From Mariprofundus sp. (GTDB lineage Bacteria > Pseudomonadota > Zetaproteobacteria > Mariprofundales > Mariprofundaceae): DNA of 59,906 nt. Made by a program: the position numbers and the translations under genes. Positions 7,735 through 37,051 of the stretch are shown in pieces. The notes below the pieces were generated by a model that had not been told where the DNA came from, searched no databases, and saw only the letters and a program-made list of their open reading frames with translations. The first letter of the stretch is position 1; each line of letters opens with the position of its first letter. The DNA lies in the NCBI GenBank assembly GCA_021772835.1, contig JAJFLE010000003.1, forward strand, positions 1 through 59,906. The letters run 5' to 3'.

Positions 7735-7772
7735 CTGAGCTGAAAACTCAGGTCGGTCATTCACCGAATGCC

Positions 7773-8099: not shown

Positions 8100-8180
8100 A
8101 TAAATGGGCAATCAGTACTCCTGAAACGGCAGTCCTGTGCTATATAGATCAGGCACACAAAGCGTCAAAAAACGACGTTT

Positions 8181-9362: not shown

Positions 9363-9414
9363 AGAGCGGCAAAAAATACATGTGTCTTTCTATCGCACCA
9401 GTGCTGGGCATGGA

Positions 9415-10284
9415 TCAATTACTTTGGCGGTATGAGCGATCAGTGAGGTGATTAAACAATGTGGTCAGGTAGTCTCGCAGATCGTTGCGGCTGACTACGT
9501 CATCAATCAGACCATGCTCAATCAGGAACTCAGAGCGCTGGAAGCCTTCCGGCAGCTTCTGACCCACGGTCTCCTGAATCACACGAGGGCCTGCAAAGCC
9601 GATCAGCGCACCCGGTTCAGCGATGATCACATCACCGAGCCAGGCGTGAGATGCGGATACGCCACCCATGGTTGGGTCGGTAAGCAGGCAGACAAAAGGC
9701 AGTTTGGCAGCATTGAGCTGATTCACAGTGGCAGATGTTTTAGCCATCTGCATCAAGGAGAGCACGCCCTCCTGCATGCGCGCGCCACCGGATGCAGTAA
9801 CCAGCAGGTAAGGGCAACCACGCTCCAGAGCATGTTCCATGCCGCGCACAATTTTTTCTCCGGCAACCGCACCCATGCTGCCACCCATGTAGCTGAATTC
9901 GAAGATGGATGAAGAAACAGTACGGCCATTGATGTCACCGATGTAATTGCGAATAGAGTCTTCTGGGCCGGATTTTTTGGCGGCATCTCTGATACGATCC
10001 TTGTATTTCTTTTTGTCTTTGAAATTCAGGGGATCCTCTGAGCGCAGTTCGGTATCTTTCTCTTCAAAGGTGCCGGTATCAAACAGCAGTTCGGCGCGCT
10101 GCAGGGCAGGCATGCGCATATGGTGGTTGCACTTGCTGCAAACCATACCATTACGCACCAGCTCCTTGTTATACAGGGCTTCCGAGCAGCTTGGGCACTT
10201 GATCCACAAGCCTTCAGGCGATCCTGATTCATTCGACTTCAGGATGTTTTTAGGTGTTTCAATCAGGCGTGTAAACCAGCTCAT
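9415..10284 (-). CDS. accD: acetyl-CoA carboxylase carboxyltransferase, beta subunit
   Basis: AccD pairs with AccA to transfer CO2 from carboxybiotin to acetyl-CoA, the committed step of fatty acid synthesis. The 289-aa protein has the N-terminal four-cysteine zinc ribbon (CPSCSEALYN... CSKCNHHMR) and the crotonase-like core with ASGGARMQEG, ASHAWLGD and GFAGPRVIQETV. Length matches the family. It sits between an MBL-fold gene and folC on the minus strand, 52 bp before folC and 105 bp after the MBL gene, where a perfect 20-bp palindrome occurs. Confidence 0.96.
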   Translation of the reverse strand: MSWFTRLIETPKNILKSNESGSPEGLWIKCPSCSEALYNKELVRNGMVCSKCNHHMRMPALQRAELLFDTGTFEEKDTELRSEDPLNFKDKKKYKDRIRDAAKKSGPEDSIRNYIGDINGRTVSSSIFEFSYMGGSMGAVAGEKIVRGMEHALERGCPYLLVTASGGARMQEGVLSLMQMAKTSATVNQLNAAKLPFVCLLTDPTMGGVSASHAWLGDVIIAEPGALIGFAGPRVIQETVGQKLPEGFQRSEFLIEHGLIDDVVSRNDLRDYLTTLFNHLTDRSYRQSN

Positions 10285-10338
10285 AGTGGTGACCTCAACC
10301 TTTCAAAATTCACAAATCGGCTCTGATGGCCTGATTTG

Positions 10339-10358
10339 GCAGCCCATGCATGGGCTGC
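10339..10358. repeat. perfect 20-bp palindrome between the MBL gene and accD
   Basis: GCAGCCCATG is followed directly by CATGGGCTGC, a perfect palindrome with no spacer. There is no T tract on either strand, so it is not an obvious terminator. Its centre inside a co-directional cluster suggests an mRNA-processing hairpin or a dimeric-protein site. The string CAGCCCATGCATGG also occurs in the ilvB leader (about 5380-5393). Confidence 0.5.
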
Positions 10359-10389
10359 TTTGGGAGTGGCTGATAAATCAGCGCTTCCT

Positions 10390-11175
10390 TTACAGTAAAA
10401 ATTCATCGACTTGCGTCAGCATGCGAAGATGTGGCACGTTCAGCGCCTCCACTTCCGCAGTCATAATGTTCAGTGTTTCCGGCTTCATATGATACAGATA
10501 GACCGGAACCTTACCAAGGGCGTTGAACTTTTGCAGTTCCTGCATGACACCATTCGGTGTCAAATGCCCGCTCACATCAGCCAGTTGCTGCATGGCATTG
10601 GGGAATGAACAGTCCATGATCACAGCTTTCAGGTTCGGCTGGGCATTGGCGACATCCCAGATGCGATTCGTGTTGCCGGTGTCAGCCGTGTAAATCACCT
10701 GCATGCCGTTCTGCTCAAGCAGAAAACCGGTACAAGGTACCGGGTGATTAACGGGTATGGCTGTGACGCGCACATCATCGATGTCGAAGGCGACTTCCGC
10801 TTGCAGATCAGCAAGTTTCAAAATCGGATCAGAGCTGTCAGGGATGCCCGTAAAGTCCGGCCACACCTCATTGTTCAAAAAATGACGGCGAAGCGTTTCA
10901 TTGCTGGCCGCCAGAGAGTGGATAGTAATGCAGGGGTTCTCCTGATTACCATTCATGCGTTTTAGCGAGCGGTTATCTGCCAGGAAAGCGATATCCTTGA
11001 TGTGGTCGAGATGAGTGTGCGACAGGCAGACATGACGGATGCCATGCTGCTCTTCCAGCGACAACGCTTCAGTTGGCGATCCTGCATCAAGCAGGATCGA
11101 ATCATTGATCAGAAACGACGTCAGTCGAAAACCGAGCAGCTGGCCGCCATAACAGCCGAGCACCTTGATTCTCAA
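10390..11175 (-). CDS. metallo-beta-lactamase-fold hydrolase, class II cyclic-nucleotide phosphodiesterase-like
   Basis: This 261-aa protein has the MBL metal site SHTHLDHIKD (HxHxDH) at about residues 53-60, a second ligand region NHPVPCTG, the bridging aspartate in YTADTGNT, and a late GHLTPNGVMQEL histidine. The order and the absence of signal peptide resemble class II 3',5'-cyclic nucleotide phosphodiesterases (CpdP/PDE1 type). The substrate is an inference and other phosphodiester substrates are possible. It starts with TTG overlapping the trpA stop (TTGA), so it is co-translated with tryptophan genes without an obvious metabolic link. Confidence 0.75.
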   Translation of the reverse strand: MRIKVLGCYGGQLLGFRLTSFLINDSILLDAGSPTEALSLEEQHGIRHVCLSHTHLDHIKDIAFLADNRSLKRMNGNQENPCITIHSLAASNETLRRHFLNNEVWPDFTGIPDSSDPILKLADLQAEVAFDIDDVRVTAIPVNHPVPCTGFLLEQNGMQVIYTADTGNTNRIWDVANAQPNLKAVIMDCSFPNAMQQLADVSGHLTPNGVMQELQKFNALGKVPVYLYHMKPETLNIMTAEVEALNVPHLRMLTQVDEFLL

Positions 11176-11984
11176 GTCGTGGCTCCGCAGATCGCCTCTT
11201 TCATCGCCAGAGCAGATGCCGTGAGCGCATCACAGATAGCCTGTTCACCACTATTCGCAGTAATCTGGGAAACAAAATGGCTGCCTACAACCACCCCGTC
11301 AGCAAAAGCACCGACTGCAGCAGCTTGCTCGGGTGTTTTTATACCGAAGCCAACACAGACCGGCATATCGGACATCGACTGGATATGCGCGGTTTTGATC
11401 CGAATCTCATCCATGTCGCCCATATCAGCACCGGTAATGCCGGTGAGTGAGACGTAATAGATAAACCCTGTTCCATGATTGCAGGCCAGTCTGATACGCT
11501 CATCCGTGGATGTCGGGGAGAGCAGAAGAATACGATCAAGCCCGTGTGCCGCAAGTATCTCGTCGCAGATATGCCCTTCTTCAGGCGGAATATCCACGAT
11601 CAACAGTCCATCGGCGCCAGCTGCTTTGGCACGTTCGGAAAACGTTTCAAAACCCATGGTGTACGGAATATTGGCGTAACCCATGAGTACAATACCGATC
11701 TCCGGATGTGCTTCACGCACGCTACGGGTGATTTCGAATACATCCTGAATATGTGCCCCGGCTTCCAGTGCACGCTCGCTGGCTGCCTGAATAACCGGAC
11801 CATCCGCCATCGGATCAGAAAAGGGCATGCCGATTTCAATGATGTCGCTCTGTTCAGCCAGGGCCAGCATCAGCTTACGACTGGTTACCAGATCAGGATC
11901 ACCTGCGGTCAGATAACCGACAAGGGCAGCGCGGCCTTCTGCTTTGCAGCGTTGAAAGACGTTGGCTATGCGCGGATTATTCAT
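11172..11984 (-). CDS. trpA: tryptophan synthase, alpha subunit
   Basis: TrpA cleaves indole-3-glycerol phosphate to indole and passes it to TrpB. The 270-aa TIM barrel has [11 protein letters not shown], the catalytic glutamate in [19 protein letters not shown], the catalytic aspartate region [11 protein letters not shown], and the phosphate loops GFGIKTPEQ and VVVGSHFV. The start overlaps the trpB stop by 4 nt, and the stop overlaps the TTG of the downstream MBL gene. Sequence and length are normal. Confidence 0.97.
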
Positions 11985-13240
11985 ACCTGATCTCCTCCGA
12001 GCTCATCGCCTAGCAGTTCGAATACGGTTCCCATATCCTTGTCGCCACGGCCGGAGAGATTGATCAGCACGGTCTGATCCGGATTCATCGCTGCTGCGAT
12101 GCGCATACCGGCAGAGACAGCGTGGCTGGATTCCAGTGCCGGGATAATGCCTTCACAGCGGGTTAACGTTTTAAAGGCTGCCAGGGCCTGATCATCGGTG
12201 GCGGAGTCCAGCTGCAAACGACCGTTCTCCAGCATGGCCGCGAGTTCAGGGCCTACACCCGGATAATCAAGGCCTGCCGAAATACTGTGTGTTGCACTGA
12301 TCTGGCCCTCTTCATCTTCAAGCAGGTAACTCAGGCTGCCATGAATAATTCCCGGTTTTCCGGCGGCCAGAGATGCCGCATGCTCATTGCCGTCGAGACC
12401 GCGACCTCCTGCTTCAACAGCCACCAGACGAACTTCATGATCATCATAAAACGGATGCAGCAGGCCGATGGCATTGGAGCCGCCACCGACACAGGCTACT
12501 GCGACATCAGGCAGACGCCCGGTTTGATCCAGGCATTGTGCGCGTGCCTCCTGGCCGATCACCGTATGAAACTGGCGAACCATCAACGGGAAGGGATGTG
12601 GGCCAGCTGCAGTGCCGAAGATGTAATAGGTGTCTTCACAGGTGGCAACCCAGACTCTCAGCGCTTCATTGACTGCATCTTTGAGTGTGCTGGTTCCGGA
12701 ATCGACCGGCACCACATTGGCACCAAGCAGTTTCATACGAAATACGTTGGGAGCCTGGCGACGAATATCTTCGCGGCCCATATAGATGTTGCACTCCATA
12801 TTAAACATGGCGGCAACTGTTGCCGTGGCCACACCGTGCTGGCCAGCACCTGTTTCAGCGATCACCTTCTTTTTGCCCATGCGACGGGCAAGCAGTGCCT
12901 GTCCGATAGTGTTGTTCACCTTATGGGCACCCGTGTGATTGAGGTCTTCACGTTTGAGATAGATCTGTGCACCACCAACTTCAGCGCTCAGGTGTTTGGC
13001 GTGATACAGCGGTGTCTGGCGCCCGACATAGTTTTTCAGCAGATCCAGACGTTCTTCGTGGAAGGCGGGATCAGCCCAGGCCTCAAAAAATGCATCTTCT
13101 ATCTCTTTGAGCGGCTGCATCAGCGTTTCGGCAGCAAAGCGGCCACCAAATTTACCGAAATGGCCACCGGCATCGGGGGGGTGTTTGATCTCCAAGTCAT
13201 ACATGGAGGAAAAATCGAGGTTGTGCAGTGGCTGGCTCAT
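11981..13240 (-). CDS. trpB: tryptophan synthase, beta subunit
   Basis: TrpB is the PLP enzyme that joins indole and serine. The 419-aa frame has the PLP lysine in [15 protein letters not shown], the [14 protein letters not shown] loop, the phosphate-binding glycine run [10 protein letters not shown], and the C-terminal NLSGRGDKD. The first 20 residues before [15 protein letters not shown] are a normal N-terminal extension. It overlaps trpF upstream and trpA downstream by 4 nt, so the three genes form a tight translational unit. Confidence 0.97.
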
Positions 13241-13881
13241 GTTCCCTTACCTTTGTTTACTGTGTTAATGAAAACGCGCATTTTCTCGGCATCTTTGATA
13301 CCCGGAGAGATTTCAACGCCAGAGGATACATCCAGTGCAAACCATTGGCGAACCGAGAGTGCTGCTTCGACATTGTCGGCATTCAGTCCACCGGCCAGCG
13401 TAAGCGGGTAATCGTGTTCGAAGCCCTCAAGCAGTGACCAGTCAAATGAAGTGCCGGTGCCGCCATAGACACCAGCAGGTGCCTTGGCATCGAGCAGCAG
13501 CGGGCAATCGAAGCGTTTGGCATGTATCAAGTCTTCAGCCCCTGATATGGCAACAGCTTTCATCACACGCCTTCGTTGAGCCTGACAGAAGGCTGGTGTT
13601 TCATCGCCATGTAACTGAATGACACCGAGCGGCACGGCCTGCAGCACCTCGGCGATGAACGCTTGAGTCGGGTTCACAAACAGGCCGACAGCAGACACGA
13701 ATGGGGGCAGCTGGCGGATAATGGCAGCTGCTTTTGCAGGTTCAATATAACGCGGTGACTTGGGATAAAAGACAAAGCCGACCGCATCCGCACCGAGCGC
13801 AGTAGCGACCAGTGCATCTTCGAGGCGGGTAATGCCGCAAACCTTGATACGGGTGCGAATAGACGACGTTGAAGCACTCAT
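13237..13881 (-). CDS. trpF: phosphoribosylanthranilate isomerase
   Basis: TrpF converts phosphoribosylanthranilate to the carboxyphenylamino-deoxyribulose phosphate intermediate. The 214-aa TIM barrel begins with [15 protein letters not shown] (catalytic Cys), has [18 protein letters not shown]-like [10 protein letters not shown], the aspartate in [18 protein letters not shown] and the DVSSGVE ending. It is the first gene of the minus-strand trpFBA cluster. Other trp genes (trpE, G, D, C) are not in the window, the split arrangement common in proteobacteria. Confidence 0.96.
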
Positions 13882-13901
13882 CGCTGCACTCTAGGGAATC
13901 T

Positions 13902-13933
13902 CTGAAAAAACTGCATCCATGTACTTTTTTCAG
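13902..13933. promoter_or_regulatory. inverted repeat in the trpF/argD divergent region
   Basis: CTGAAAAAA (13902-13910) pairs with TTTTTTCAG (13925-13933) across a 14-nt loop. It lies 21 bp upstream of the trpF start codon on the minus strand, in the 200-bp region that must also carry the argD promoter. It could be an operator or part of the trpF leader. A short minus-strand frame across it contains no tryptophan codons, so a trp attenuator is not supported. Confidence 0.35.
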
Positions 13934-14081
13934 GCGAGCTTGAATGCATCCGCATTGTCATTGGTGTCATGGCGTAAGCTTAATGATTTTCCACTGTAAC
14001 GACAAAGTCTTGCGTGTCGGGGTTGGCGTTCTGTGCGAAGAAAAGGTGCGTAACTGGTAACTCTTGCCTAAACTCCGGCGT

Positions 14082-15242
14082 ATGAGTGCTGTAATGAACA
14101 CATATGCCCGTTTCCCGGTTACTCTGGTGAAAGGTCAGGGCTCCACTGTTTGGGATGATGCAGGCAATGCATATCTCGACTTTATTTCCGGTATTGCCGT
14201 CAATACGTTGGGTCATGGGCATCCTGCCATGGTTGCTGCTTTGGCCGATCAGGCGGCGACTATGCTGCATTGTTCCAACCTGTTCCATATTCCTAAACAA
14301 CAGCAGCTGGCCGAAAAGCTTGTTTCCCTGTCAGGCCTTGGCTCCGCATTTTTTTGCAATTCAGGTGCGGAAGCCAATGAAGCGGCAATCAAGCTGGCTC
14401 GTAAGTTCTTTTATGATCAGAACTCATCCAGACGCACGATTATCACGGCTACGCAATCCTTTCACGGCCGTCTGCTTTCGACTCTGACCGCCACCGGTCA
14501 GGACAAGGTGAAGATAGGGTTTGACCCGCTGCCTCCGGGCTTTGTGCATGTACCGCTTAATGACATTGAAGCACTGAAACAGGCGGTGACATCTCAGACT
14601 GCAGCGATTTTGTTGGAGCCACTGCAGGGCGAAGGTGGTGTCAATGTGGCTGAAGCAACGTATCTTCAGGCAGTCCGTCAGCTTTGCGATGAACATGGCA
14701 TACTGCTGATGCTCGATGAAGTACAGACAGGCATCGGACGTACGGGGTCGATGTTTGCCTTTGAGCAGGCTGGCATTACCCCGGACATTCTTACTTTGGC
14801 TAAGGGGCTGGGCGGCGGTGTGCCTATCGGTGCCATGCTTGCCAGTGACGAGGTGGCGGCCTCATTCGGCCCGGGTACACACGGCTCGACTTTCGGAGGC
14901 AACCCACTTTCCTGCTCTGCTGCATTGGCGGTGCTGGATGTGATTGCATCGGAATCGCTGCTTGATAATGTGAAGGCGCGTGGTGAACAGTTGTGGCAAG
15001 GGTTACATGAGTTAAAACAGCGTTTCCCGGTGATTCAGGATGTTCGCGGACAGGGGCTGCTGGTTGGCGCCGGGCTATCAATTGAAGCTGGCCCTGTGGT
15101 CACTGCAGCACGGGGTGAGGGATTGATGATTCTTCTTGCCGGCCCCAAGGTGTTGCGCTTTTTGCCTGCGTTGAATGTAAGCGAAGAAGAGGTGAATGAG
15201 GCTCTGGCGCTGCTTGCCAGCGTGATGGAGGGTTTTGCATGA
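14082..15242 (+). CDS. argD: acetylornithine aminotransferase
   Basis: ArgD is a class III PLP aminotransferase of arginine synthesis (and often lysine, as N-succinyl-DAP aminotransferase). The 386-aa protein has FISGIAVNTLGHGHP, NSGAEANEAAIKLAR, the PLP aspartate in LLMLDEVQTGIGRTG, and the Schiff-base lysine in LTLAKGLGGGVPIGA. A TTG at 14064 extends the frame by six codons, but ATG 14082 gives the usual MSxVMNTYAR start. argF begins in its stop codon. The gene opens the argD-argF-argG cluster, divergent from trpF. Confidence 0.95.
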   Translation: MSAVMNTYARFPVTLVKGQGSTVWDDAGNAYLDFISGIAVNTLGHGHPAMVAALADQAATMLHCSNLFHIPKQQQLAEKLVSLSGLGSAFFCNSGAEANEAAIKLARKFFYDQNSSRRTIITATQSFHGRLLSTLTATGQDKVKIGFDPLPPGFVHVPLNDIEALKQAVTSQTAAILLEPLQGEGGVNVAEATYLQAVRQLCDEHGILLMLDEVQTGIGRTGSMFAFEQAGITPDILTLAKGLGGGVPIGAMLASDEVAASFGPGTHGSTFGGNPLSCSAALAVLDVIASESLLDNVKARGEQLWQGLHELKQRFPVIQDVRGQGLLVGAGLSIEAGPVVTAARGEGLMILLAGPKVLRFLPALNVSEEEVNEALALLASVMEGFA

Positions 15243-27108: not shown

Positions 27109-28265
27109 AAAAAACTATGAGCAAACGCATGATTATCATGCTGGCCGTTGTCGGTACGGTGTTTGCGGCCATTGTCGGTTATCAGATGTTTGTGGCCAGT
27201 ATGATGAAGCAGTATCTGGCTTCCAATGCGCAGCCGCCTGCCACTGTCACAGCCATGAAGGTTAAACCGCAGTTATGGCAACCGCAGCTTGCTGCCGTGG
27301 GCACACTGCGTGCGGTTCAGGGCGTGCAGATCACCGCCGAGACCTCCGGCATTGTGAAAAAAATCCATTTCAAGTCGGGTGATGAGGTTATACAGGGGGC
27401 ATTGCTGCTGGAGTTGAACAGCGCGGAAGAGACAGCCCAACTGCAATCTCTGCAGGCCAGTCGCAAGCTTGCTGAAATCAATTTTGCGCGTGATAAACAA
27501 CAGTTCGTTATTCATGCGATCAGCAAGGCACAGCTGGATGCCTCGCAAGCTGAACTCACAGGCAAACGGGCCCAGGAAGCGCAGCAGCAGGCGGTTCTTG
27601 ATAAAAAAAGTATTCGTGCACCTTTTTCCGGTCGTCTCGGTATCACTCACATCAATCCCGGCCAGTACCTGAATGTAGCAGAGGCGATTGTGTCGTTGCA
27701 GAACAACCGCGCTCTGTATATCGATTTCAACCTGCCACAGAAATTTGTCGGATCCATCAAGCCGGGACAAAAAATCAGTGTGTATGGCAGCAAAGCGAGC
27801 GAACTGGCCATCGGTGGCCAGATCACCACCATCAACAGTGTGGTGGAGAAAACAACGCGCAACGTACTGGTTGAAGGAAAGATCGATAATGCGAATGGGG
27901 CACTGTTAGCGGGCATGTTTGCACATGTGAAAATCGATGCCGGAGAGCCGCAGATGCAGCTGACTTTGCCACAGACCGCCATCAGTTATAATGCTTACGG
28001 TTCTACACTGTTTATCGCCAAAGCAGAGAAGAATGAGGCAGCAGCAGATGTGCCGACAGATGCGCCGGTTAAACAGGTGGCACAGCAGGTATTTGTGAAA
28101 ACAGGCGATAAACGCGGTGATCAGGTGGCCATTCTGGGAGGTCTTGAGGAAGGCGACACCGTGGTGACCTCCGGTCAGCTGAAATTGAAAAATGGCACGC
28201 CGCTGATTATCAACAATGTGGTGTTGCCTGCGAATGAAGCGGCACCGAAGCCGCAGGAGCAGTAA
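27105..28265 (+). CDS. RND efflux periplasmic adaptor (membrane fusion protein)
   Basis: The 386-aa protein has an N-terminal membrane anchor (MIIMLAVVGTVFAAIVGYQMF). A barrel-sandwich half (AAVGTLRAVQGVQITAETSGIVKKI, FKSGDEVIQGALLLELN) follows, then a short helical hairpin with LQASRKLAEI and the returning lipoyl half (KKSIRAPFSGRLGI). A beta-barrel and membrane-proximal domain complete it, ending GLEEGDTVVTSGQLKLKNGTPL. It links the inner-membrane pump to the outer duct. No lipobox is present. Confidence 0.92.
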   Translation: MKKTMSKRMIIMLAVVGTVFAAIVGYQMFVASMMKQYLASNAQPPATVTAMKVKPQLWQPQLAAVGTLRAVQGVQITAETSGIVKKIHFKSGDEVIQGALLLELNSAEETAQLQSLQASRKLAEINFARDKQQFVIHAISKAQLDASQAELTGKRAQEAQQQAVLDKKSIRAPFSGRLGITHINPGQYLNVAEAIVSLQNNRALYIDFNLPQKFVGSIKPGQKISVYGSKASELAIGGQITTINSVVEKTTRNVLVEGKIDNANGALLAGMFAHVKIDAGEPQMQLTLPQTAISYNAYGSTLFIAKAEKNEAAADVPTDAPVKQVAQQVFVKTGDKRGDQVAILGGLEEGDTVVTSGQLKLKNGTPLIINNVVLPANEAAPKPQEQ

Positions 28266-28266
28266 G

Positions 28267-31200
28267 GTGCGCTACACCGATATCTTTATCCGAAGGCCCG
28301 TGCTGGCCACCACGATCAGCCTGTTGCTGCTCGTACTTGGTCTGCAGGCCATCATGAGTATGCCTATCCGTCAGTATCCGGAAACGCAGAATGCCGTGGT
28401 GACCGTAAGCACGGCCTATTATGGTGCTGATGCGGAAACCATCTCCGGCTTTATCACCCAGCCACTGGAAACGGCAGTGGCTCAGGCCGAAGGTATAGAT
28501 TACCTCTCCTCGGTCAGTGTCAGTGGTGTTTCCACCATCAGCGCAACACTGCGCCTGAACCATGATTCGAACCGTGCGCTCACCGATATCAATGCCAAGG
28601 TAAATGCCGTACTCAACCAGCTGCCAGCACAGGCACAGCAGCCGGTGCTCACTGTGCAGGTCGGTGAAACTATTGCATCGATGTATATGGGTTTCTTCAG
28701 CGATGTGCTGGCCAGCAACAACGTCACCGATTATCTGCTGCGCGTGGTAAAACCGCAACTTGACGGCATTGAAGGTGTGCAGCGCGCCGAGATTATCGGT
28801 GCACGCCAGTTTGCCCTGCGCGCATGGCTCGATCCTGCCCGTATGGCGGCCTACGGTATTACTGCCAGCGATGTGTATGCGGCACTTGCAGCTAACAACT
28901 ATCTGGCCACGCTCGGCAGCAGCAAGGGGCAGATGGTCAGCGTAGAACTCAATGCAGCGACCAGCCTGCATTCGGTGGATGAGTTCAAGGAGCTGGCCAT
29001 TTTTGAAAAAAATGGTGCTATCGTGCGTTTGCAGGATGTCGCCAATGTCGTGCTGGGAGCAGAAGATTATAATCTGACTACAGCCTTCGATGGCAAGAAG
29101 TCGGTGTTTATCGGTATCAAGGTTGCTCCTGACGCGAATGTGCTGGAGGTGGTCCAGCGTGTGCGTGATGCCTTCCCTGCTATTCAGGCCCAGATGCCCA
29201 ATGGCCTGACCGGTAAAGTCGTTTACGACGGCACTAAATTTATCGAAAGCTCGATTGATGAAGTGATCAAAACCCTGATCGAGGCGCTGCTGATCGTAGC
29301 CTTCGTGGTGTTTATTTTTCTCGGCAACTGGCGTGCTGTGGTCGTGCCGCTGGTGGCAATCCCGCTATCCCTGGTCGGTGCCTTTTTTATCATGCAGTCA
29401 CTCGATTACACCATCAACCTGCTCACCCTGCTGTCGCTGGTGCTGGCCATCGGGCTGGTGGTCGATGATGCCATTATCGTGGTGGAGAATGTTGACCGCC
29501 ATATGCACCATGAAGGCAAGAGTCCGTTTGAGGCCGCTATGCTGGCAGCACGTGAACTGGGAGGCCCGATCATTGCCATGACGGTGGTGCTGATCGCTGC
29601 CTATGTGCCGATTGGTTTCCAGGGCGGTTTGACTGGTGCACTGTTTAGCGAGTTCGCTTTCACGCTGGCAGGAGCTGTTACCATCTCCGCTATTGTCGCG
29701 CTGACACTCTCGCCGATGATGACCTCGAAAATGTTCAAACCCAAACAGGATGACAGCCGACTTGTGGTTTTTATTGATCGCCAGTTTTCGCGTTTGCACA
29801 GCTCTTATCAGCGTAGACTGACAGGTACACTGACAACCTGGCCGGTGATGGTGGTGATGGGTGGTTTGCTGCTGGTTGGTGTGGTTTTTCTGTTTGCCAC
29901 TTCCAAGGCGGAGCTGGCTCCGGAAGAGGATCAGGGCATTGTGCTGGCGCATGTCGCGGGCGCGCCCAACGCCACTGCGCAGCAGATGGCTGCTTATGCC
30001 GATCAGGCTTATCTGCTGGTGCGTGAGCTGCCCGAATATGATCAGATGTTTCAGCTCACCGGTATGCCAACCACCAATCAGGGCATAGGCGGTGTATTGT
30101 TCAAACCGTGGGACGAGCGCACACGCAGTGCCGCAGAATTGCAGATGATACTGCAGCAGAAATGGAGCACGATTGCCGGAGCCCATGTCGCAGCATTCCA
30201 GTTTCCGGCGCTGCCCGGTTCCGGTGGATTGCCGTTGCAGTTCGTTATCAAAACCACGGAGTCCTTTGAAAACCTGAATGAGATTGTCGGCAAGGTGCTA
30301 GCCAAAGCGCAGGCCAGCGGCATGTTCTTCTATATCGATTCCGATCTGAAAATCGATAAACCCCAAAGCACACTGGTGGTGGATCGCGATATGGCGACCA
30401 GTCTCGGCCTGACCCAGCAGGATATCGGTGCAGCACTTGGTGCAGCACTCGGTGGCGGCTATGTGAACTATTTCTCCATCGGTGGGCGCTCCTATCGTGT
30501 CATGCCGCAGGTAGGGCAGGAGTTCCGTCTGAATCCGGAACAGGTGCTCGATTATTATATACGCACGCCATCTGGCGAGATGATTCCTGCCTCTACCATC
30601 GCATCGATTTCTCACGAGGTGGTGCCGGAATCGATCAACCGCTTCCAGCAGCTCAATTCAGCCACAATCATGGGTGTGTATGCGCCGGGTGTTTCGCAGC
30701 AACAGGTGCTCGAATTTATGGCCAATGCACTCAATGAAGAGGCGCCGAGTGGTTATACGCCCGATTATGCCGGCCCGTCACGCCAGTATATGCAGGAGTC
30801 CGGTGGTTTCGTCTTCACCATGCTGTTTGCCATCGTGATTGTGTTTCTCGCCCTCTCCATCCAGTTCAACAGTTTCCGCGACCCGCTGGTGATTCTGGTT
30901 TCCGTTCCCTTGGCTTTATTGGGCGCGCTATTGTTTATCAATGTGGGGCTTGCCTCGATCAACATCTATACGCAGGTGGGGCTGGTCACCCTGATGGGGT
31001 TGATCAGTAAACATGGTATTTTGATGGTGCAGTTTGCCAACGAACTGCAGCTGGCCGGCCGCTCGAAGCGCGATGCGATTATTGAAGCATCGGCTGTGCG
31101 TCTGCGTCCGATCCTGATGACTACAGCTGCCATGGTGCTGGGTGTGATTCCTCTGGTGCTGGCCAGTGGCGCGGGTGCCGCAGGGCGATATTCGATGGGG

Positions 31201-31344
31201 CTGGTGATTTTCACCGGCCTCTCCATCGGTACCCTGTTCACCCTCTTTGTTGTTCCGGCTGTGTATATGCTGGTAGCCAAAGATCGTTCGGCAGAAGTGG
31301 TTAACAGTGAACGGGAACTGAAGATTTCTGAGGGTATGGCTTGA
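28267..31344 (+). CDS. RND multidrug efflux pump, HAE-1 type
   Basis: The 1025-aa proton-driven pump starts at GTG 28267 after AGGAG (28256-28260). Blocks include FIRRPVLATTISLLLLVLGL (TM1), MPIRQYPETQNAVVTVSTAYYGADAE split across the porter domain, and the proton-relay pair in LVLAIGLVVDDAIIVVENVDRH (TM4). The C-terminal half repeats the architecture with VPLALLGALLF and GLITLMGLISKHGILMVQF-like VTLMGLISKHGILMVQFANE. Substrates cannot be deduced, though the TetR partner and HAE-1 type favour organic compounds rather than metals. A longer frame from 28216 overlaps the adaptor and is rejected. Confidence 0.93.
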   Translation: MRYTDIFIRRPVLATTISLLLLVLGLQAIMSMPIRQYPETQNAVVTVSTAYYGADAETISGFITQPLETAVAQAEGIDYLSSVSVSGVSTISATLRLNHDSNRALTDINAKVNAVLNQLPAQAQQPVLTVQVGETIASMYMGFFSDVLASNNVTDYLLRVVKPQLDGIEGVQRAEIIGARQFALRAWLDPARMAAYGITASDVYAALAANNYLATLGSSKGQMVSVELNAATSLHSVDEFKELAIFEKNGAIVRLQDVANVVLGAEDYNLTTAFDGKKSVFIGIKVAPDANVLEVVQRVRDAFPAIQAQMPNGLTGKVVYDGTKFIESSIDEVIKTLIEALLIVAFVVFIFLGNWRAVVVPLVAIPLSLVGAFFIMQSLDYTINLLTLLSLVLAIGLVVDDAIIVVENVDRHMHHEGKSPFEAAMLAARELGGPIIAMTVVLIAAYVPIGFQGGLTGALFSEFAFTLAGAVTISAIVALTLSPMMTSKMFKPKQDDSRLVVFIDRQFSRLHSSYQRRLTGTLTTWPVMVVMGGLLLVGVVFLFATSKAELAPEEDQGIVLAHVAGAPNATAQQMAAYADQAYLLVRELPEYDQMFQLTGMPTTNQGIGGVLFKPWDERTRSAAELQMILQQKWSTIAGAHVAAFQFPALPGSGGLPLQFVIKTTESFENLNEIVGKVLAKAQASGMFFYIDSDLKIDKPQSTLVVDRDMATSLGLTQQDIGAALGAALGGGYVNYFSIGGRSYRVMPQVGQEFRLNPEQVLDYYIRTPSGEMIPASTIASISHEVVPESINRFQQLNSATIMGVYAPGVSQQQVLEFMANALNEEAPSGYTPDYAGPSRQYMQESGGFVFTMLFAIVIVFLALSIQFNSFRDPLVILVSVPLALLGALLFINVGLASINIYTQVGLVTLMGLISKHGILMVQFANELQLAGRSKRDAIIEASAVRLRPILMTTAAMVLGVIPLVLASGAGAAGRYSMGLVIFTGLSIGTLFTLFVVPAVYMLVAKDRSAEVVNSERELKISEGMA

Positions 31345-31654
31345 TTTGATTCATTGCGTGAATGATCACTAGAGAAGCTATCACGCTGACGACACAGCAC
31401 AGTTCGTGTAAGTGAATGAATTCACTTGTCCTTTCTTGCCGCCCACAAAGTGGCAGGAGAGCCTCTTTGGACGTGCTGCACGGCACGCCCGCAGGGTGAG
31501 GCACATGGATGTGCCGAATCAGGAAGGGGCCTGTCGCGCCCCTGCCGCTCTTCTCCGATTTTGAGCATTTGTCTCGGCAGCCTGCTAACGGGGGATCAAA
31601 AGGTGTGTGTCCCATCCATAATTTTTGATGAACATTGAATTGTAGACCCCATCT
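31345..31654. repeat. hairpin-rich intergenic sequence after the efflux operon
   Basis: No gene is evident. Several dyads follow one another: AAGTGAAT-GA-ATTCACTT (31410-31427), GTGCTGCACGGCAC (about 31473-31486), GGCACAT-GG-ATGTGCC (31500-31515) and GGGGC-N7-GCCCC (31526-31542). None is followed by a T tract. The density of independent hairpins looks like a dispersed repeat or the remains of a structured element rather than a terminator. Confidence 0.45.
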
Positions 31655-31942
31655 TTAGCTTTTGAGATCTTCAGCCATTTCGCGGGTGGTGTGCCACGCC
31701 TGCTGAGCTTTTTTGCCGGTCCACTCCGCTGCCTCACCGGCCGCTTTACTGGTCGCACGCCACGCCGAACGGGAGTGTTTTACAGTCCAGTTCGTCGCCT
31801 CAGACGCGAACACTTTGGTGTCCGCCCAGGCTGAACTTGTGTGAATTTTTGTCTGCTCCCACACCCCCTCTTCCGCCGAGGCCATCTGCGGCGACTGCAT
31901 CAGGGCAAAGAGCATTATGGGAAGAATCATCAGTTTTTTCAT
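31655..31942 (-). CDS. secreted protein with 22-residue amphipathic repeats
   Basis: The 95-aa product has a signal peptide (MKKLMILPIMLFALMQ..., predicted cut after ASA). Its mature part is built from 22-residue units: SAWADTKVFASEATNWTVKH(SR), SAWRATSKAAGEAAEWTGKK(AQ) and a partial QAWHTTREMAEDLKS. Each carries AW near its start and W-T-x-K near its end, predicting an amphipathic helix. LEA-like or apolipoprotein-like behaviour at a membrane or envelope surface is conceivable. GGAGG precedes the ATG by seven bases, supporting the call. I recognise no named family. Confidence 0.65.
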   Translation of the reverse strand: MKKLMILPIMLFALMQSPQMASAEEGVWEQTKIHTSSAWADTKVFASEATNWTVKHSRSAWRATSKAAGEAAEWTGKKAQQAWHTTREMAEDLKS

Positions 31943-32076
31943 GGTCAGACCTCCAAAACGAATTTCCGTAGCCCGATTTGTAAACGCGACTGGAAAAGCC
32001 GTCAGTGTTTAGCATCACACTGGCGGAGCAGGCAAAAGCCAAAACAATTGAGGAATATCAACGATAGAAACAAGCC

Positions 32077-32238
32077 ATGACCGGCCGTTCAGGAAAGAGA
32101 AATACAGGCATTCAGCTCGGAGCCGGGAAGCATACATACCCACACATCAATCCTAACCCGGTTAATTATTCCGGCACCTATGTTGAAGGTGATGCATGTT
32201 TGACGGTTCCAGAGTTGCTACCTATGCTCAATCGTTGA
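32077..32238 (+). CDS. 53-aa orphan protein, first gene of a cassette-like array
   Basis: ATG 32077 opens a frame of 53 codons that ends at TGA 32236-32238, inside the first attC-like element. This gene-stop-in-attC arrangement is what integron cassettes show. The product begins MTGRSGKRNTGIQLGAGKH and contains HINPNPVNYSGTYVEGDACL before PELLPMLNR. No Shine-Dalgarno is obvious, which is frequent in cassettes. I cannot assign a family. Between 31943 and 32076 there is one further hairpin (CAGTGT/ACACTG with flanking CCG/CGG, about 31998-32025) and no gene. Confidence 0.4.
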   Translation: MTGRSGKRNTGIQLGAGKHTYPHINPNPVNYSGTYVEGDACLTVPELLPMLNR

Positions 32239-32293
32239 TGGGGAATTGTTTGCGCGCCGAAACAGATACTTATACTCATTAATAAGTTAGAGC
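32226..32293 (+). repeat. attC-like recombination site 1
   Basis: The element has nested arms in attC order: GCTCAATC (32226-32233) opposite GTTAGAGC (32286-32293), six of eight paired; ATGGG (32238-32242) opposite CTCAT (32275-32279); and TGTTT (32247-32251) opposite AAACA (32260-32264) around an 8-nt tip. The right arm GTTAGAG is one base from the core consensus GTTRRRY. It ends 17 bp before the GNAT gene. Confidence 0.5.
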
Positions 32294-32310
32294 AAAAGAG
32301 AGTCAAAAGA

Positions 32311-32922
32311 ATGGAAGCAATAACATTGGACGGTAAACATGTTCGCTTGGAGCCGCTTTCTTCAGAGCATATAGATGGTCTTTGTGAAGCGATTTATGAT
32401 GGGGAGCTCTGGAAGCTGTACGTAACATTAGTACCTCATCCAGATAACATACATGAGTTTTTCAGCAACGCACAAAAAGCAAACAAAAGTGGTGATGGCC
32501 TTACTTTTGCGACAATTGATAAACATACAAATCGAATTGCTGGCTCTACGAGGTTCATGAAAGCCAATCTGCCGTATAAAAGAATAGAGATTGGTTACAC
32601 TTTTCTGGGAAAATCATGGCAGAAAACACGGCTTAATACAGAAGCAAAGTTACTGATGCTTTCGCATGCATTTGAGTCTTTGGGGCTTAATCGTGTTGAG
32701 TTTCTAACTGATTACCTCAACAGTTCATCTCGACAGGCCATATTACGACTAGGGGCAAAACAAGAGGGGCTTCTTCGCAACCATATGGTAATGCCTGATG
32801 GTAGAATCAGGGATTCTGTGATGTACAGCATCATAGAAAATGAATGGTTAGGTGTTAAACAGCACTTGTCATGCAAATTGATCGAACAAGGCAATCAAGA
32901 TGACCTACATGCGTTCGTCTGA
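32311..32922 (+). CDS. GNAT N-acetyltransferase, RimJ/RimL type
   Basis: The 203-aa protein begins LDGKHVRLEPLSSEHIDGL, continues with FATIDKHTNRIAGSTRF and IEIGYTFLGKSWQKT, and has SSRQAILRLGAKQEGLLRNHM, the acetyl-CoA-side pattern of the RimJ/RimL-like branch. The substrate is unknown; cassette-borne relatives act on small molecules, antibiotics or protein N-termini. Its TGA lies inside the next attC-like arm. Base composition is AT-richer than the surrounding core genes. AAGAG(AG) ahead of the ATG is a plausible ribosome site. Confidence 0.85.
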   Translation: MEAITLDGKHVRLEPLSSEHIDGLCEAIYDGELWKLYVTLVPHPDNIHEFFSNAQKANKSGDGLTFATIDKHTNRIAGSTRFMKANLPYKRIEIGYTFLGKSWQKTRLNTEAKLLMLSHAFESLGLNRVEFLTDYLNSSSRQAILRLGAKQEGLLRNHMVMPDGRIRDSVMYSIIENEWLGVKQHLSCKLIEQGNQDDLHAFV

Positions 32923-32960
32923 CCTGTTACCGCGGGCAGCCAGCTTTTGCAACGTTGGGC
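32917..32960 (+). repeat. attC-like recombination site 2 (degenerate or short)
   Basis: GTCTGAC (32917-32923), which includes the GNAT stop, can pair fully, counting G-T pairs, with GTTGGGC (32954-32960), an exact match to the attC core GTTRRRY. The 30-bp centre does not fold clearly, and the 44-bp span is shorter than known attC sites. I treat it as a degenerate or partially deleted site. Confidence 0.35.
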
Positions 32961-32973
32961 ACAAGGGAAACAA

Positions 32974-33303
32974 ATGAGCTCAAGCATAGAATTTATAGCA
33001 TATGTTAAGGAGCTGTTTATTCCGTTGGGAGAGCTTAAAGGCGGGAAATTTTTCGGAGGTTTTGCCTTCAAAAGTGGTGCAAAACAATTTGCTATGATTA
33101 TGGATAATACCTTGTATTTCTGCGTTAATGAGCAAACTAGGCCAAAATATATTAACTTAGCTATGCAACCATTTTCATACTCAACAAAGAAAGGGATTGT
33201 AAATGTAAAAAAATACTATTCTGCACCAGAAGAACTTTTTGAAGACCAGGACGAATTATTGAAGTGGGCTCATGAAGCAATCGAATCAGCGTACAGTGCC
33301 TAG
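32974..33303 (+). CDS. TfoX N-terminal-domain protein
   Basis: The 109-aa protein consists of a single TfoX/Sxy N-terminal domain: PLGELKGGKFFGGFAFKSG, AMIMDNTLYFCVNEQTRPKY, PFSYSTKKGIVNVKKYYSAP and a terminal ELLKWAHEAIE. The C-terminal helix-hairpin domain of full-length Sxy is absent. Sxy controls competence genes with CRP, but stand-alone N-domains such as this are common cassette and accessory genes with no demonstrated role. ATG 32974 follows AAGGGA; an earlier TTG (32947) lies inside the attC-like arm. Confidence 0.8.
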   Translation: MSSSIEFIAYVKELFIPLGELKGGKFFGGFAFKSGAKQFAMIMDNTLYFCVNEQTRPKYINLAMQPFSYSTKKGIVNVKKYYSAPEELFEDQDELLKWAHEAIESAYSA

Positions 33304-33377
33304 CAAGGCAATGGATAAGGCCAATAAAAGCGGTGCTTCGCACGCGCTGTTATTGGCCTATATCTTTAACGTCAGCT
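33298..33377 (+). repeat. attC-like recombination site 3 with long imperfect hairpin
   Basis: GCCTAGC (33298-33304, containing the TfoX stop) stands opposite GTCAGCT (33371-33377). GGATA (33313-33317) pairs with TATCT (33361-33365), leaving A33360 unpaired. AGGCCAATAA (33318-33327) pairs with TTATTGGCCT (33350-33359), then AGCG with CGCT and GTG with CAC around CTTCG. Unpaired bases on one side and the R-spacer-L order are attC hallmarks. The outer arms pair only five of seven. Confidence 0.55.
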
Positions 33378-33398
33378 GATCACAGAACGGAGACAATC

Positions 33399-34079
33399 GT
33401 GTTCGCAGGAAAAAAAGCGTTGCTTCTTGATATGAACAGCACGTTTATGTTCGGTGAGGACAGATTCGGTGATGGCGAAGATTTTTCGGCGCACTATTTC
33501 CACATTGGCGGAACGCTCCCGCAAGATGAGATCAATAGAATTGTGCGCGCAGTGTATGGGTACCTGGGCACCCGCTACCCAGATGAAAAGTATAGGCATA
33601 GCTTTCCGTCTTTGGAAAGTGCAATCCGAGAGGTGGTTGGCAGAACAATTGGCAGAGATGAGATCAATATGATCATCGACACCTTTGCTTTCCACGAGCT
33701 CGGGTACATTCCTAACGAATACGGTGCAGCCCTCCATGATTTGCGGCAACACTTTACATTGGCAGCGGTCATAGACATCTGGGCACCCAAAACAGCATGG
33801 CTAACAGAGTTCGAACGCGCGGGCATCTCGGGTATTTTTGACGCCACTTCGTTCTCCTCCGATCATGGCATGGTCAAGCCTTCACCAAAACCATTTGAAC
33901 TCGTGTTAAGCCAACTTGGAATCGCTAACTCAGAAGCTATTGTGGTCGGAGATTCGCCGCGAAGAGACCTCGGTGGTGCAAAGAGCGCTGGTATCGACTG
34001 TATCTTGGTTGGTGGTGCTGAGCATCCCAATGCACTGAGGAGCTTTAAGAACCTGCTGGAGCTATGCAATTCAATCTAA
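33399..34079 (+). CDS. HAD-superfamily hydrolase
   Basis: The 226-aa protein starts at GTG after GGAG (33389-33392). HAD motif I is LLLDMNSTFMF, so the usual second Asp of DxDxT is Asn. Motif II is in AAVIDIW, motif III includes GMVKPSPKPFELVL (Lys), and motif IV is VVGDSPRRDLGGAKSAG. An alpha-helical cap lies between motifs I and II. The nucleophile Asp is kept, but replacing the acid/base Asp by Asn would impair ordinary phosphatase chemistry, so the reaction may differ. It is a cassette-position gene followed by a good attC-like site. Confidence 0.82.
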   Translation: MFAGKKALLLDMNSTFMFGEDRFGDGEDFSAHYFHIGGTLPQDEINRIVRAVYGYLGTRYPDEKYRHSFPSLESAIREVVGRTIGRDEINMIIDTFAFHELGYIPNEYGAALHDLRQHFTLAAVIDIWAPKTAWLTEFERAGISGIFDATSFSSDHGMVKPSPKPFELVLSQLGIANSEAIVVGDSPRRDLGGAKSAGIDCILVGGAEHPNALRSFKNLLELCNSI

Positions 34080-34083
34080 AACC

Positions 34084-34137
34084 GGCTAACATGGCGTTGA
34101 CGTCGCAAAGCGCGCCACCCTCAACTTAACGTTATCT
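34084..34137 (+). repeat. attC-like recombination site 4 (best example)
   Basis: The order is textbook: R'' GGCTAAC (34084-34090), 5-bp spacer, L'' GTTGA (34096-34100), variable centre with TGGCG/CGCCA pairing possible, L' TCAAC (34121-34125), 5-bp spacer TTAAC, R' GTTATCT (34131-34137). R'' and R' pair at six of seven positions, L'' and L' at all five. It starts 4 bp after the HAD stop codon. Confidence 0.6.
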
Positions 34138-34162
34138 TTTTGAGATCATACGGAGCCGTTTT

Positions 34163-34792
34163 TTGAATCGTTTGGAAGTAACCATCAATACATTCGACAA
34201 ATATGCTGATCAATATCAGGACAAGTACATGAAGTACGAACCCTATATTGAGACATATCGATATTTGTCTGGCTTACTCAAAGCTGATGCGGATGTATTG
34301 GATGTGGCGTGTGGTCCAGGCAATATAAGCAAATTGTTGCTGGAGGAAAAACCTCAATTAAGGGTTCATGGGATCGATTTGTCGCCGCAAATGCTTCACC
34401 TGGCAAGATTGAACAATCCAACAGCAACCTTTGAAATTATGGATAGCCGGGAAATATCGTCACTCAAGAAAATGTATGACGCAATAGTGGCTGGTTTTTG
34501 CTTCCCCTACTTATCCAGGGAGGAGGTTGTCCGGTTTATTCTCAGTGCTCGGGCGATGGTGAGACCCGGCGGAATTTTCTATATAAGCACAATGGAAGGT
34601 GACTACGCAGATTCGGGGTACCAATCAAAGAACAATGAAGACCGGGTTTATATTTATTACCACCAAGCAACATACTTGCTGGAACAACTGAAATCAGCCG
34701 GGTTTGAGATGATTCATGTTGAACGCAAGTCCTTCGCATCAGACGACGAATCCGAAGCGGTTGATCTCTTCATATACGCAAGAGCTCGATAA
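34163..34792 (+). CDS. class I SAM-dependent methyltransferase
   Basis: The 209-aa protein has SAM motif I VLDVACGPGNISKLLL, motif II VHGIDLSPQMLHLAR, the IMDSRE acidic post-motif and MVRPGGIFYISTM. It has no targeting domain, so the substrate (small molecule most likely) is unknown. The start is TTG at 34163 after GGAG (34152-34155). It is the last gene of the cassette-like array; no clear attC-like site follows, only a TTTTTTT tract near 34844. It converges on the feoB-like gene 76 bp away. Confidence 0.85.
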   Translation: MNRLEVTINTFDKYADQYQDKYMKYEPYIETYRYLSGLLKADADVLDVACGPGNISKLLLEEKPQLRVHGIDLSPQMLHLARLNNPTATFEIMDSREISSLKKMYDAIVAGFCFPYLSREEVVRFILSARAMVRPGGIFYISTMEGDYADSGYQSKNNEDRVYIYYHQATYLLEQLKSAGFEMIHVERKSFASDDESEAVDLFIYARAR

Positions 34793-34868
34793 ATGACGAA
34801 AGCTGACGAGCGCAAGCAACTCGGACATACCTCCGCAGTGCTTTTTTTATGCTTGAATCGTGGTTGTT

Positions 34869-36917
34869 TTAGATCAAGCCGTCGATGCCGGTCATGGAGA
34901 AGCGGACAATGAGGGCGACGATGAGAGCGACGCCGATGGAGAGGGCGATAGAGAAGAAGGCTTCCTTGCGACCGATGACGCGCAGCATTACAGCGAAGGT
35001 GGAGATGCACGGAATATAGAAGAGCAGGAATACGAGAAAGGTGGTGATCTGAATCGAATCCAGCTGTTCTCCGACTTCGAAAGTGCCGAGTGCCTGATAG
35101 ATCATCACCAGCGACAACTCTTTACGCAACACACCAAACAGGATCGGTACACCAAGCACGACAGGCAGGCCGAGCGCCCAGACGGTAATCGGGGCAAGGG
35201 CGGCATTCACGACCGTATCCGCCCCCATGAATTGCAGCAGGGCAAGGATGACGCTGCCGCCAACCAGTAGCGGGGTAACAATAGTGAGAATGTCCCTGGT
35301 ACGGTTCCAGGTGGAGGCCAGAAGCGGTTTCATTTTCGGCCAGGCATATGCCGGAATCTCCTGAATCAGACCGGGGCTGATTTCCGGGTAACGGTGGGAG
35401 AGCAGGCGGCCAAGCACGGCAATCACCAGCAGACTCAACATAAACAACAGCAACACACCCATGACACCGAGATACTTGGCACCCAGGGCCAATACAATCG
35501 CCGAGCGGGCAGAGCAGGGGACAAAGGTGATCAGCAGCGATGAAACCACACGGTCGCGGCCGCTAGACAATCCTTTGGTGGCTGCAATGGCTGGTACGTT
35601 GCAGCCGAGCCCCAGCAGAAACGGAACAGCTACTTTGCCGTGCAGGCCGATGGCATGGAAAAAACGGTCCACGACAAAGGCGATGCGATGCATGATGCCG
35701 CTTTCCTCCAGTGCAACCAGCATCAGTACCAATGGCAGCATGTAGGGCACAACAATGCCGATGAGCCCGATCAGGCCATCGACTACGGCGCGGCCAATGA
35801 CACCTGTGGCGGTATCGGGTTGCCAGGAAGAGACCATGTCAGCAAGCCTGGCCGCCGACATCGCATCCAGCGCGGTACTGACCTCGAACACCATAAACAA
35901 CACGGCTGCAAATACGGCAAGTGAACCGACCAGCCCCCAACGCGGATGCAGGAATAACATATCGAGCCGCTCTTCCCAGCTGACCCGCGGTTTGTGAATG
36001 AACCGGGCTACATCTTCAAAGAGGCTTGCGGCGCGGTGATGGCGATCTGCCCTGATCTCCTCGGTCAGTGGGCGGGGTAATTCACGGTCGCCCTGTTCAT
36101 GCAGGGCGCGGATGTCAGGTGCAATATCGGGAAAATGACTCTCCAGCTCCGAAAGAAAAAAGGCATCATTTTCCAGCAGTGTCATCGTCAGCATGTTGCC
36201 GGGAATGGAAAAGGCATCGGCTATTTCAGGGCTGTCGAGCAACTTGTGCAGTTTAATTCCCCACTCCTGAATATGCAGGCTGGGCGATTGAGGTAACGGG
36301 CAGACCGGTTTGCGGCCTGCCTGCAATACGTGCTCAAAGAGTTCCGAGAGCCCGTGTCCTTTCAGGGCGACGGTAGGAATGACAGGCGCGCCCAGCTTTT
36401 CAGAAAGCTGCCCGATGTCGATTTCAACCCCTTTCCGGTGCGCTTCATCCATCATGTTCAGCGCAATGACGATAGGCAGCCCCAGTTCCGACAGCTCCAG
36501 TGCCAGCTCAAGACTTTGCTGGAGGGCACTGGCATCAATCACATAGATGAGAACATCGGGGCGTGAAAAGGGTGCCGGTGGCTCGGAGCGTTCATGACGT
36601 GAAATCAACGGCCGCGCATCTCCCCAGAGCAGGTATTTCAGCGCCTCCAGGTCGTCGCCAGCAAGATTGCGCAGCCCGTTAAGGTCCGGCAGATCCACCA
36701 AATGAATTTCATCGACGCCGATCTGCACAGGGCACTCTGCATAGGGTTTATGGGTACCTGCTAGGTTGCCTGTGCGGTAGCTGGTACTGGCTACCGCATG
36801 AAAGATGGTGCTCTTGCCACTGTTGTGCTGGCCGACCAGTGCCACACGCAGACGATTTTCGCCGCGATAAATGTGCTCATGCCATGTCAGCGGCTGGGTG
36901 AATTCGGTTGTCTGCAT
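34869..36917 (-). CDS. FeoB-like Fe(II) transporter with divergent G domain
   Basis: The 682-aa protein has an N-terminal GTPase-like domain and about nine membrane segments with FeoB-type Gate blocks (PYMLPLVLMLVALEESG, LLGLGCNVPAIAATKGLSSG, FVPCSARSAIVLALGA, PAYAWPKMKPLL). FeoB imports ferrous iron. The G motifs are unusual: G1 GQHNSGKSTIF and G3 DLPDLNGL in place of GxPNxGKTT and DLPGxYSL; G4 NMMD is kept. No feoA is adjacent. ATG 36917 is chosen; an in-frame TTG at 36959 would add 14 residues. Neither has a strong ribosome site. Confidence 0.82.
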   Translation of the reverse strand: MQTTEFTQPLTWHEHIYRGENRLRVALVGQHNSGKSTIFHAVASTSYRTGNLAGTHKPYAECPVQIGVDEIHLVDLPDLNGLRNLAGDDLEALKYLLWGDARPLISRHERSEPPAPFSRPDVLIYVIDASALQQSLELALELSELGLPIVIALNMMDEAHRKGVEIDIGQLSEKLGAPVIPTVALKGHGLSELFEHVLQAGRKPVCPLPQSPSLHIQEWGIKLHKLLDSPEIADAFSIPGNMLTMTLLENDAFFLSELESHFPDIAPDIRALHEQGDRELPRPLTEEIRADRHHRAASLFEDVARFIHKPRVSWEERLDMLFLHPRWGLVGSLAVFAAVLFMVFEVSTALDAMSAARLADMVSSWQPDTATGVIGRAVVDGLIGLIGIVVPYMLPLVLMLVALEESGIMHRIAFVVDRFFHAIGLHGKVAVPFLLGLGCNVPAIAATKGLSSGRDRVVSSLLITFVPCSARSAIVLALGAKYLGVMGVLLLFMLSLLVIAVLGRLLSHRYPEISPGLIQEIPAYAWPKMKPLLASTWNRTRDILTIVTPLLVGGSVILALLQFMGADTVVNAALAPITVWALGLPVVLGVPILFGVLRKELSLVMIYQALGTFEVGEQLDSIQITTFLVFLLFYIPCISTFAVMLRVIGRKEAFFSIALSIGVALIVALIVRFSMTGIDGLI

Positions 36918-37051
36918 AATAAGCAGGGCCGAATTTACTCGCTTTGTCTGGCGCGACAAGTCAGAAAATCGATTGCAGCACTATGACCTGTCGCAAAAGC
37001 AATATTTCTGCAATACTTGAGTTGCATTCTCGGTTGACGCATGGAGGTGTG

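Follow-up and report, generated by a model that had tools for sequence, protein, structure and literature searches.

Clusters of attC sites lacking integron-integrases (CALINs) have no intI gene nearby and are proposed to be degraded integrons, according to the accessible sections of PMC9024848. In one study of Xanthomonas, about half of the genomes had CALINs at a distance from the intI locus, and CALINs are also said there to be mobilisable in trans (PMC12444791, as excerpted). In Treponema phagedenis, attC sites and cassettes remain after deletion of intI, and in T. brennaborense one attI R box was named by its match to the R' of attC (both from excerpts of PMC3607928). The attI site is poorly described outside class 1 integrons and is undetected there by the standard tool (again from sections of PMC9024848). 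In class 1 integrons, attI1 is spanned by ORF-11, an open reading frame (ORF) with a Shine-Dalgarno (SD) sequence; its TAG stop usually falls at core positions 3-5, and it boosts translation of the first cassette (PMC8876359, in excerpt). Cassettes at attG and delta-attI sites are treated in the available part of PMC12901181. Here we describe an integrase-less cassette array with an attI of its own. It lies on a Mariprofundus contig of 59,906 bases (C13), which was analysed whole and is called the window below; the source genome has 2.55 Mb in 87 contigs and is 92.7% complete.

We found that the block at 32035-34865 is very probably the remnant of a chromosomal integron, with a cassette promoter (Pc), an attI and four cassettes inserted by an integron integrase, from which intI has been lost. 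It is best read as a decaying CALIN-type array that retains its promoter and attI but not intI. Like a CALIN, here taken as two or more clustered attC sites without intI, the window has several attC sites (three matches in 1.26 kb) and cassette genes, with no intI on the contig. Unlike a CALIN, the cluster keeps a recognizable attI, a putative promoter and a leader ORF, and five of the nine genomes with this attI have the unit in two or more places. The array is thus of a known kind, and what is newly defined is the attI, together with the putative promoter and leader. The original prediction, an integron-type cassette array without an adjoining integrase and with borders at four named sites, is partly upheld, with the first of those sites reassigned to attI.

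The attI occupies 32264-32292 on the plus strand. It consists of a core, AGATACTTATACTCATTAATAA (32264-32285), followed by an R box, GTTAGAG (32286-32292). The motif has no second copy within the window, and an exact copy is present on contig C63 of the same genome. We searched 150 genomes for the core: the source genome, 22 others from its genus, 51 from elsewhere in the family, and 76 more distant ones. Allowing up to three mismatches, there were 15 copies in nine genomes, all nine from the same family, and the reversed pattern used as a control had no match in the 150 genomes. To the right of the copies the sequence diverges from the GTT onward and different DNA follows; the crossover reads ATT instead of GTT in 2 of the 15. 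We identify 32264-32292, by this comparison, as an attI and not an attC. The proposal that 32226-32293 is an attC was not borne out, as this segment contains the -10 box, the leader region and the attI.

Junctions in relatives support this identification. Six of the 15 attI copies have a downstream attC detected by the covariance model R1 (described below), and in every one of the six the first attC's R'' and the attI 7-mer are exact reverse complements of each other. The same rule is also exact for each of the six further attC sites that are chained behind these copies (two in L140, three in L141 and one in L142). We interpret this exact complementarity as the trace of IntI inserting circular cassettes. 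The eight remaining copies outside the window are followed by a contig end, an insertion sequence, or DNA with no attC detected by R1. The match of R box to R' in T. brennaborense is close to the junction check used here. The Treponema study rested on attC, whereas here the attI itself can be recognized in 15 copies, one of them with an intI remnant.

A putative Pc, TTGACG-17-TATGCT (32200-32228, plus strand), lies 35 bp ahead of attI and has 9 of 12 consensus matches, a score reached by 8 of 200 shuffles of its own segment. In the same 65-base stretch to the left of attI, TTTGAC is found in 9 of the 15 copies and TATGCT in 7. An ORF of 53 codons at 32077-32238, predicted to be the first of five plus-strand genes, runs through both hexamers of the putative promoter and probably does not represent a gene.

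Several of the attI copies carry a short putative leader ORF. In the window this ORF (32246-32290, plus strand) has a TTG start and a poor SD sequence, and its TAG stop falls at positions 3-5 of the R box. Where relatives have ATG, the window reads GCG (by eye), leaving a TTG at -40, and its leader appears to be lost. In the frame that corresponds to ORF-11, 9 of 15 copies had an SD-like run of at least four bases together with a start codon located at -34 or -40, versus 1 of 30 other frames. This count used a lenient SD (GGGG and GGGA allowed), and the attI copies are related rather than independent. Like ORF-11, intact copies appear to have a short ORF with an SD-like run across attI and a TAG at positions 3-5 of GTTRRRY. 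Unlike ORF-11, this putative leader is unrelated in sequence, belongs to chromosomes of marine bacteria and is decayed in the window.

To see how far such leaders extend, we examined 95 intI loci with upstream DNA, 35 of which yielded a verified first junction. A leader in the ORF-11 frame with an SD of at least four bases was present at 7 of the 35. All seven start with ATG and belong to the family of the window (8 junction loci), so these 35 loci give no sign of an ORF-11-like leader outside that family. Four of the seven begin MRNFDYSYS and come from an attI of other sequence. The other two frames had a leader with such an SD at 7 of the 35 loci (two ATG and five TTG starts), and four of the five TTG leaders lie inside MRNF leaders; the frame contrast is therefore good for ATG starts only. 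At four intI-linked loci from four other genomes (L124, L128, L131 and L133), a near-identical leader peptide that begins MRNFDYSYS enters the core of a different attI.

We detected attC sites with a covariance model. A home-made attC score gave 16.9 for 34084-34137 and failed to separate it from background (17.7 and 17.0 at other places), so the covariance model was used instead. This model, R1, was built on 32 aligned attC sites from other genomes: 28 from a list of neighbors that fit the junction rule and 4 further sites, with none from the fetched pieces of the source genome. Its structure is the pairing of R and L boxes. Paired cells made up 94.6%, and none of 500 shuffles attained the covariation score, on an alignment that had also served to choose the pairing.

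R1 matched three of the four places predicted to be attC and did not match 32226-32293 as an attC. Over the whole window, with E up to 10, it reported just two sites, both on the plus strand. One is attC3 (34084-34137; 16.1 bits, E 0.1), with R'' GGCTAAC, L'' GTTGA, L' TCAAC and R' GTTATCT. The attC architecture predicted there was borne out by the best R1 match of the window. The other is attC1 (32881-32960; 15.3 bits, E 0.17), a degraded site with R'' ATCGAAC and R' GTTGGGC. The GTTRRRY core noted earlier at 32954-32960 is indeed part of an attC, not free-standing but the R' end of this degraded site. An unfiltered run on 31900-35000 added attC2 (33298-33377, plus strand; 10.6 bits), with R'' GCCTAGC and R' GTCAGCT, along with a 4.8-bit reverse reading of the first site. 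The three top R1 matches of the window, both strands considered, are thus in tandem, on the same strand and at gene ends.

The folds of these sites differ. The bottom strand of attC2, folded as DNA, forms a strong hairpin (z -5.35), and its core reads AGC/GTC instead of AAC/GTT; the attC architecture predicted there is confirmed, with a score near background. The fold of the attC3 bottom strand is weak (z -0.67) and its core is intact. Two well-scoring attC sites folded for comparison gave z -4.84 and z -1.65. The predicted folds fit decay of the attC sites in the window.

We found no IntI in the 59.9-kb window, in agreement with the original prediction. The lone tyrosine recombinase (58412-59386) is XerC-like, and a search of the window for an intI remnant gave nothing apart from this gene. 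Searching the rest of the genome for intI and attC revealed an IntI on contig C85 and eight further attC sites. The C85 protein covers TIGR02249 with 415.6 bits (cut-off 265), and its best solved relative is 2a3v (IntI4; E 3e-79). Its frame leaves the contig edge at the 5' side, with the start unseen, and its closest named relative is from a Mariprofundus sp. metagenome-assembled genome (L010, 90% identity).

Some relatives retain intI, or part of it, near the attI. In G005, one contig carries both attI and an intI with 90% identity to the C85 gene. In G002, a remnant of the intI start (34 residues, 79% identity, E 2e-11) lies divergent to one attI copy, at a distance of 235 bp. There are two attI copies in G002, three in G003 (an assembly of 4 contigs, 99% complete) and two in G010. 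The best TIGR02249 matches in these three genomes (E 2e-20 to 9e-20) are at the level of other tyrosine recombinases, and none is above the cut-off. We therefore read the attI copies as integrons from which intI has disappeared. In the window, the insert begins on its left at 32035, 229 bp from attI and about where intI would be expected to start, which is only suggestive of an intI there.

Two inverted-repeat structures were seen near attI copies of relatives. Upstream of attI in the second G002 copy (L140), a perfect palindrome with 19-base arms (4686-4704 and 4717-4735) separates the intI remnant from the promoter. The other G002 copy becomes homologous at a point 132 bp ahead of attI, some 4 bases short of the right arm. 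In G005:C96 (L152), imperfect inverted repeats of about 55 bases (approximately 1-55 and 690-746, by eye) flank a unit of attI, one cassette and its attC; intI lies beyond the repeats, in the same orientation. These repeats may mark a real inversion or an assembly joint at a repeat.

The block holds four plus-strand genes with Pfam matches, and these matches confirm four of the five genes predicted here. Cassette 1 encodes a GNAT acetyltransferase (32311-32922; PF13302, 69.8 bits), with its stop codon within attC1. Cassette 2 encodes a protein with a TfoX N-terminal domain (32974-33303; PF04993, TfoX_N, 74.3 bits). Cassette 3 encodes a HAD-superfamily hydrolase (33399-34079; PF13419, 47.9 bits), with a GTG start preceded by GGAG at 33389-33392. 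The fourth gene, a cassette or a remnant of one, encodes an S-adenosylmethionine-dependent methyltransferase (34163-34792; PF13649, 63.5 bits). The block is AT-richer than its neighbors, as had been noted: the G+C fraction (GC) is 0.444 in 31950-34800, versus 0.512 in 1-31344 and 0.513 in 34800-59906.

We compared the block with the same interval in relatives. In the closest relative at this locus, G017 (contig C134; 88% DNA identity in the left-hand RND gene and 82% in the right-hand FeoB gene), blastn homology ends at 32034 and restarts at 34866. G017 carries a Phd/ParE-type toxin-antitoxin pair in place of the block, so the block is not a stable syntenic one. Other material fills the interval in G020 (~10.3 kb), G016 (~4.4 kb) and G001 (~5.2 kb). 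Because the interval is itself occupied in relatives, exact insertion borders and target duplications are not definable. Downstream of the same RND gene, G010 carries an attI copy, but its distance from the gene differs and its crossover reads ATT. Any part of the block was matched in only 6 of 74 family genomes, the source genome included. The whole block was found only in the source genome; its gene order is therefore not a conserved block. Partial matches, each in a different genome, include those to the TfoX gene (G024), the GNAT gene (G064) and a HAD stretch (G046).

Several observations weigh against reading the block as an integron remnant. The attC scores of the window are low compared with the 22-55 bits of 16 sites in arrays of relatives, 6 of which are R1 training sequences. 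A genome-wide R1 scan ranked attC1 last (E 7.14) and did not list attC3 (150 of 709 candidates were scored). The attC1 hairpin is lost, with a fold no better than shuffles (z 1.69). The 10.6 bits of attC2 hardly exceed the best score in the remainder of the window (10.3 bits for a partial minus-strand match at 10569-10600; the next is 7.6 bits), and a partial 10.6-bit match also occurs in L150, within 202,626 bases of other loci. attC2 is supported instead by where it lies, between two genes, and by its strand and hairpin. No R1 match to attC was found in 34793-35000, downstream of the methyltransferase gene, so the cassette status of that gene rests on its position. Promoter-like matches across the 3-kb region are no more frequent than in shuffles. 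Junctions in the window agree at 8 of 12 variable positions, versus 15 of 36 in mismatched pairs (P ~0.07), making this test of the junction rule only suggestive. No attC was found beside any of the three homologs in G024, G064 and G046, within the 1.5-3.3 kb fetched, and cassette status is not demonstrated by these homologs. In the other clusters of the source genome, the upstream junction is exact for just 1 of 8 attC sites, which indicates that decay is general in this genome.

These observations bear on three other explanations. The block might consist of single cassettes that IntI placed directly in the chromosome at attG sites of the non-classical kind, this locus never having had an attI platform. 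Insertion at attG was reportedly described by Loot et al. in 2024, as cited in PMC12901181 and PMC12444791, and the clusters on contigs C84, C21, C34 and C36 have no attI motif in the fetched stretches. We consider this very unlikely, as the array begins at a 25-bp motif that has 15 copies in the family, six of them with cassettes and attC behind. We give still less credence to an ordinary AT-rich genomic island or operon with intergenic hairpins that happen to look like attC. The low attC scores would suit it, as would homologs of the cargo elsewhere without attC and the other inserts in this interval in G017, G020, G016 and G001; against it, three tandem matches on the same strand, the best of the window, lie directly downstream of attI. 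It is extremely unlikely that Xer recombination integrated the block, with the recurring 28-bp motif as its dif-like site: the motif shows an 11-6-11 layout of inverted arms, which we take to be of the dif type, but there are several copies per genome, some copies are on the contig of intI or beside an intI remnant, and we dropped this explanation because GC skew does not turn at the site and the bases after GTT vary and, in 6 of 6 testable copies, are complementary to the R'' of the attC that follows.

If the block is an integron remnant, IntI would have inserted the four cassettes successively at attI. The intI gene would have been divergent, about 235 bp to the left of attI, and would since have gone from this place. 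The cassette genes would be transcribed from the putative Pc. In relatives, the leader ORF, with its predicted ribosome-binding site, ends at the attI core or shortly beyond it, which might let ribosomes re-start at the first cassette gene. Given the decayed leader start and attC sites, the array in the window is probably largely frozen. Its present mobility is doubtful, as the attC sites look decayed, and the C85 IntI could at best still recognize the window attI in trans.

What is uncommon here is that the attI unit is multi-copy in five of the nine genomes that have it and occurs in genomes without IntI. One tentative explanation is that, in this genus, the unit of promoter, leader and attI has become detached from intI and spread. 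There could then be up to three independent integrase-less platforms per genome, at separate chromosomal locations, each able to hold expressed cassettes and filled or shuffled in trans by a single or transient IntI. If so, the rule of one integron, one attI would fail in this genus.

The attI was defined by comparison alone, aided by a check of the attI junction against the next R'' that is applicable to any genome. Arrays without intI can thus keep attI and, putatively here, the promoter, and an ORF-11-like leader may not be a peculiarity of class 1. The stranded docking sites in relatives may show how integrons break up, perhaps being served from a distance, and the array offers natural test pieces for the action of IntI in trans. 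Literature searches on integrons of Zetaproteobacteria or Mariprofundus and on integrase-less attI arrays, which covered few subscription journals, gave no report of this system among the papers listed, and a search on attI leaders outside class 1 gave none on those among the papers it listed. In the sections available, PMC10295459 reports CALINs in vent bacteria without naming Mariprofundus, and PMC4909258 has a single mention of Mariprofundus, where it gives the top protein match to a cassette from saliva.

The source genome carries further cassette clusters, on contigs C84, C21, C34 and C36. The eight attC sites found outside the window score 23-46 bits with R1, and a weight matrix found no attI of the window type in the fetched stretches of these clusters. 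One larger array (L164, G000:C34:33000-48323, at about 7700-14400) has about ten short plus-strand genes, with GNAT-like, LysE-like, tyrosinase-like and signal-peptidase-like types recognized by eye. It contains three R1 attC sites (23-37 bits), and no window-type attI was found in it.

To the left of the block are an AcrB-type RND gene (28216-31344) and a reverse-strand ORF of 95 codons, and to the right is the reverse-strand FeoB gene (34869-36959). A scan of the window against Rfam at gathering thresholds gave no match. Between the RND gene and the 95-codon ORF lies a repeat of about 215 bases (31387-31602). The whole stretch 31343-31634 is absent from G017 at the corresponding place. Parts of the repeat recur on contigs C36, C58, C86 and C10 of the source genome and once in G017 (contig C4), and it is possibly a non-coding mobile repeat.

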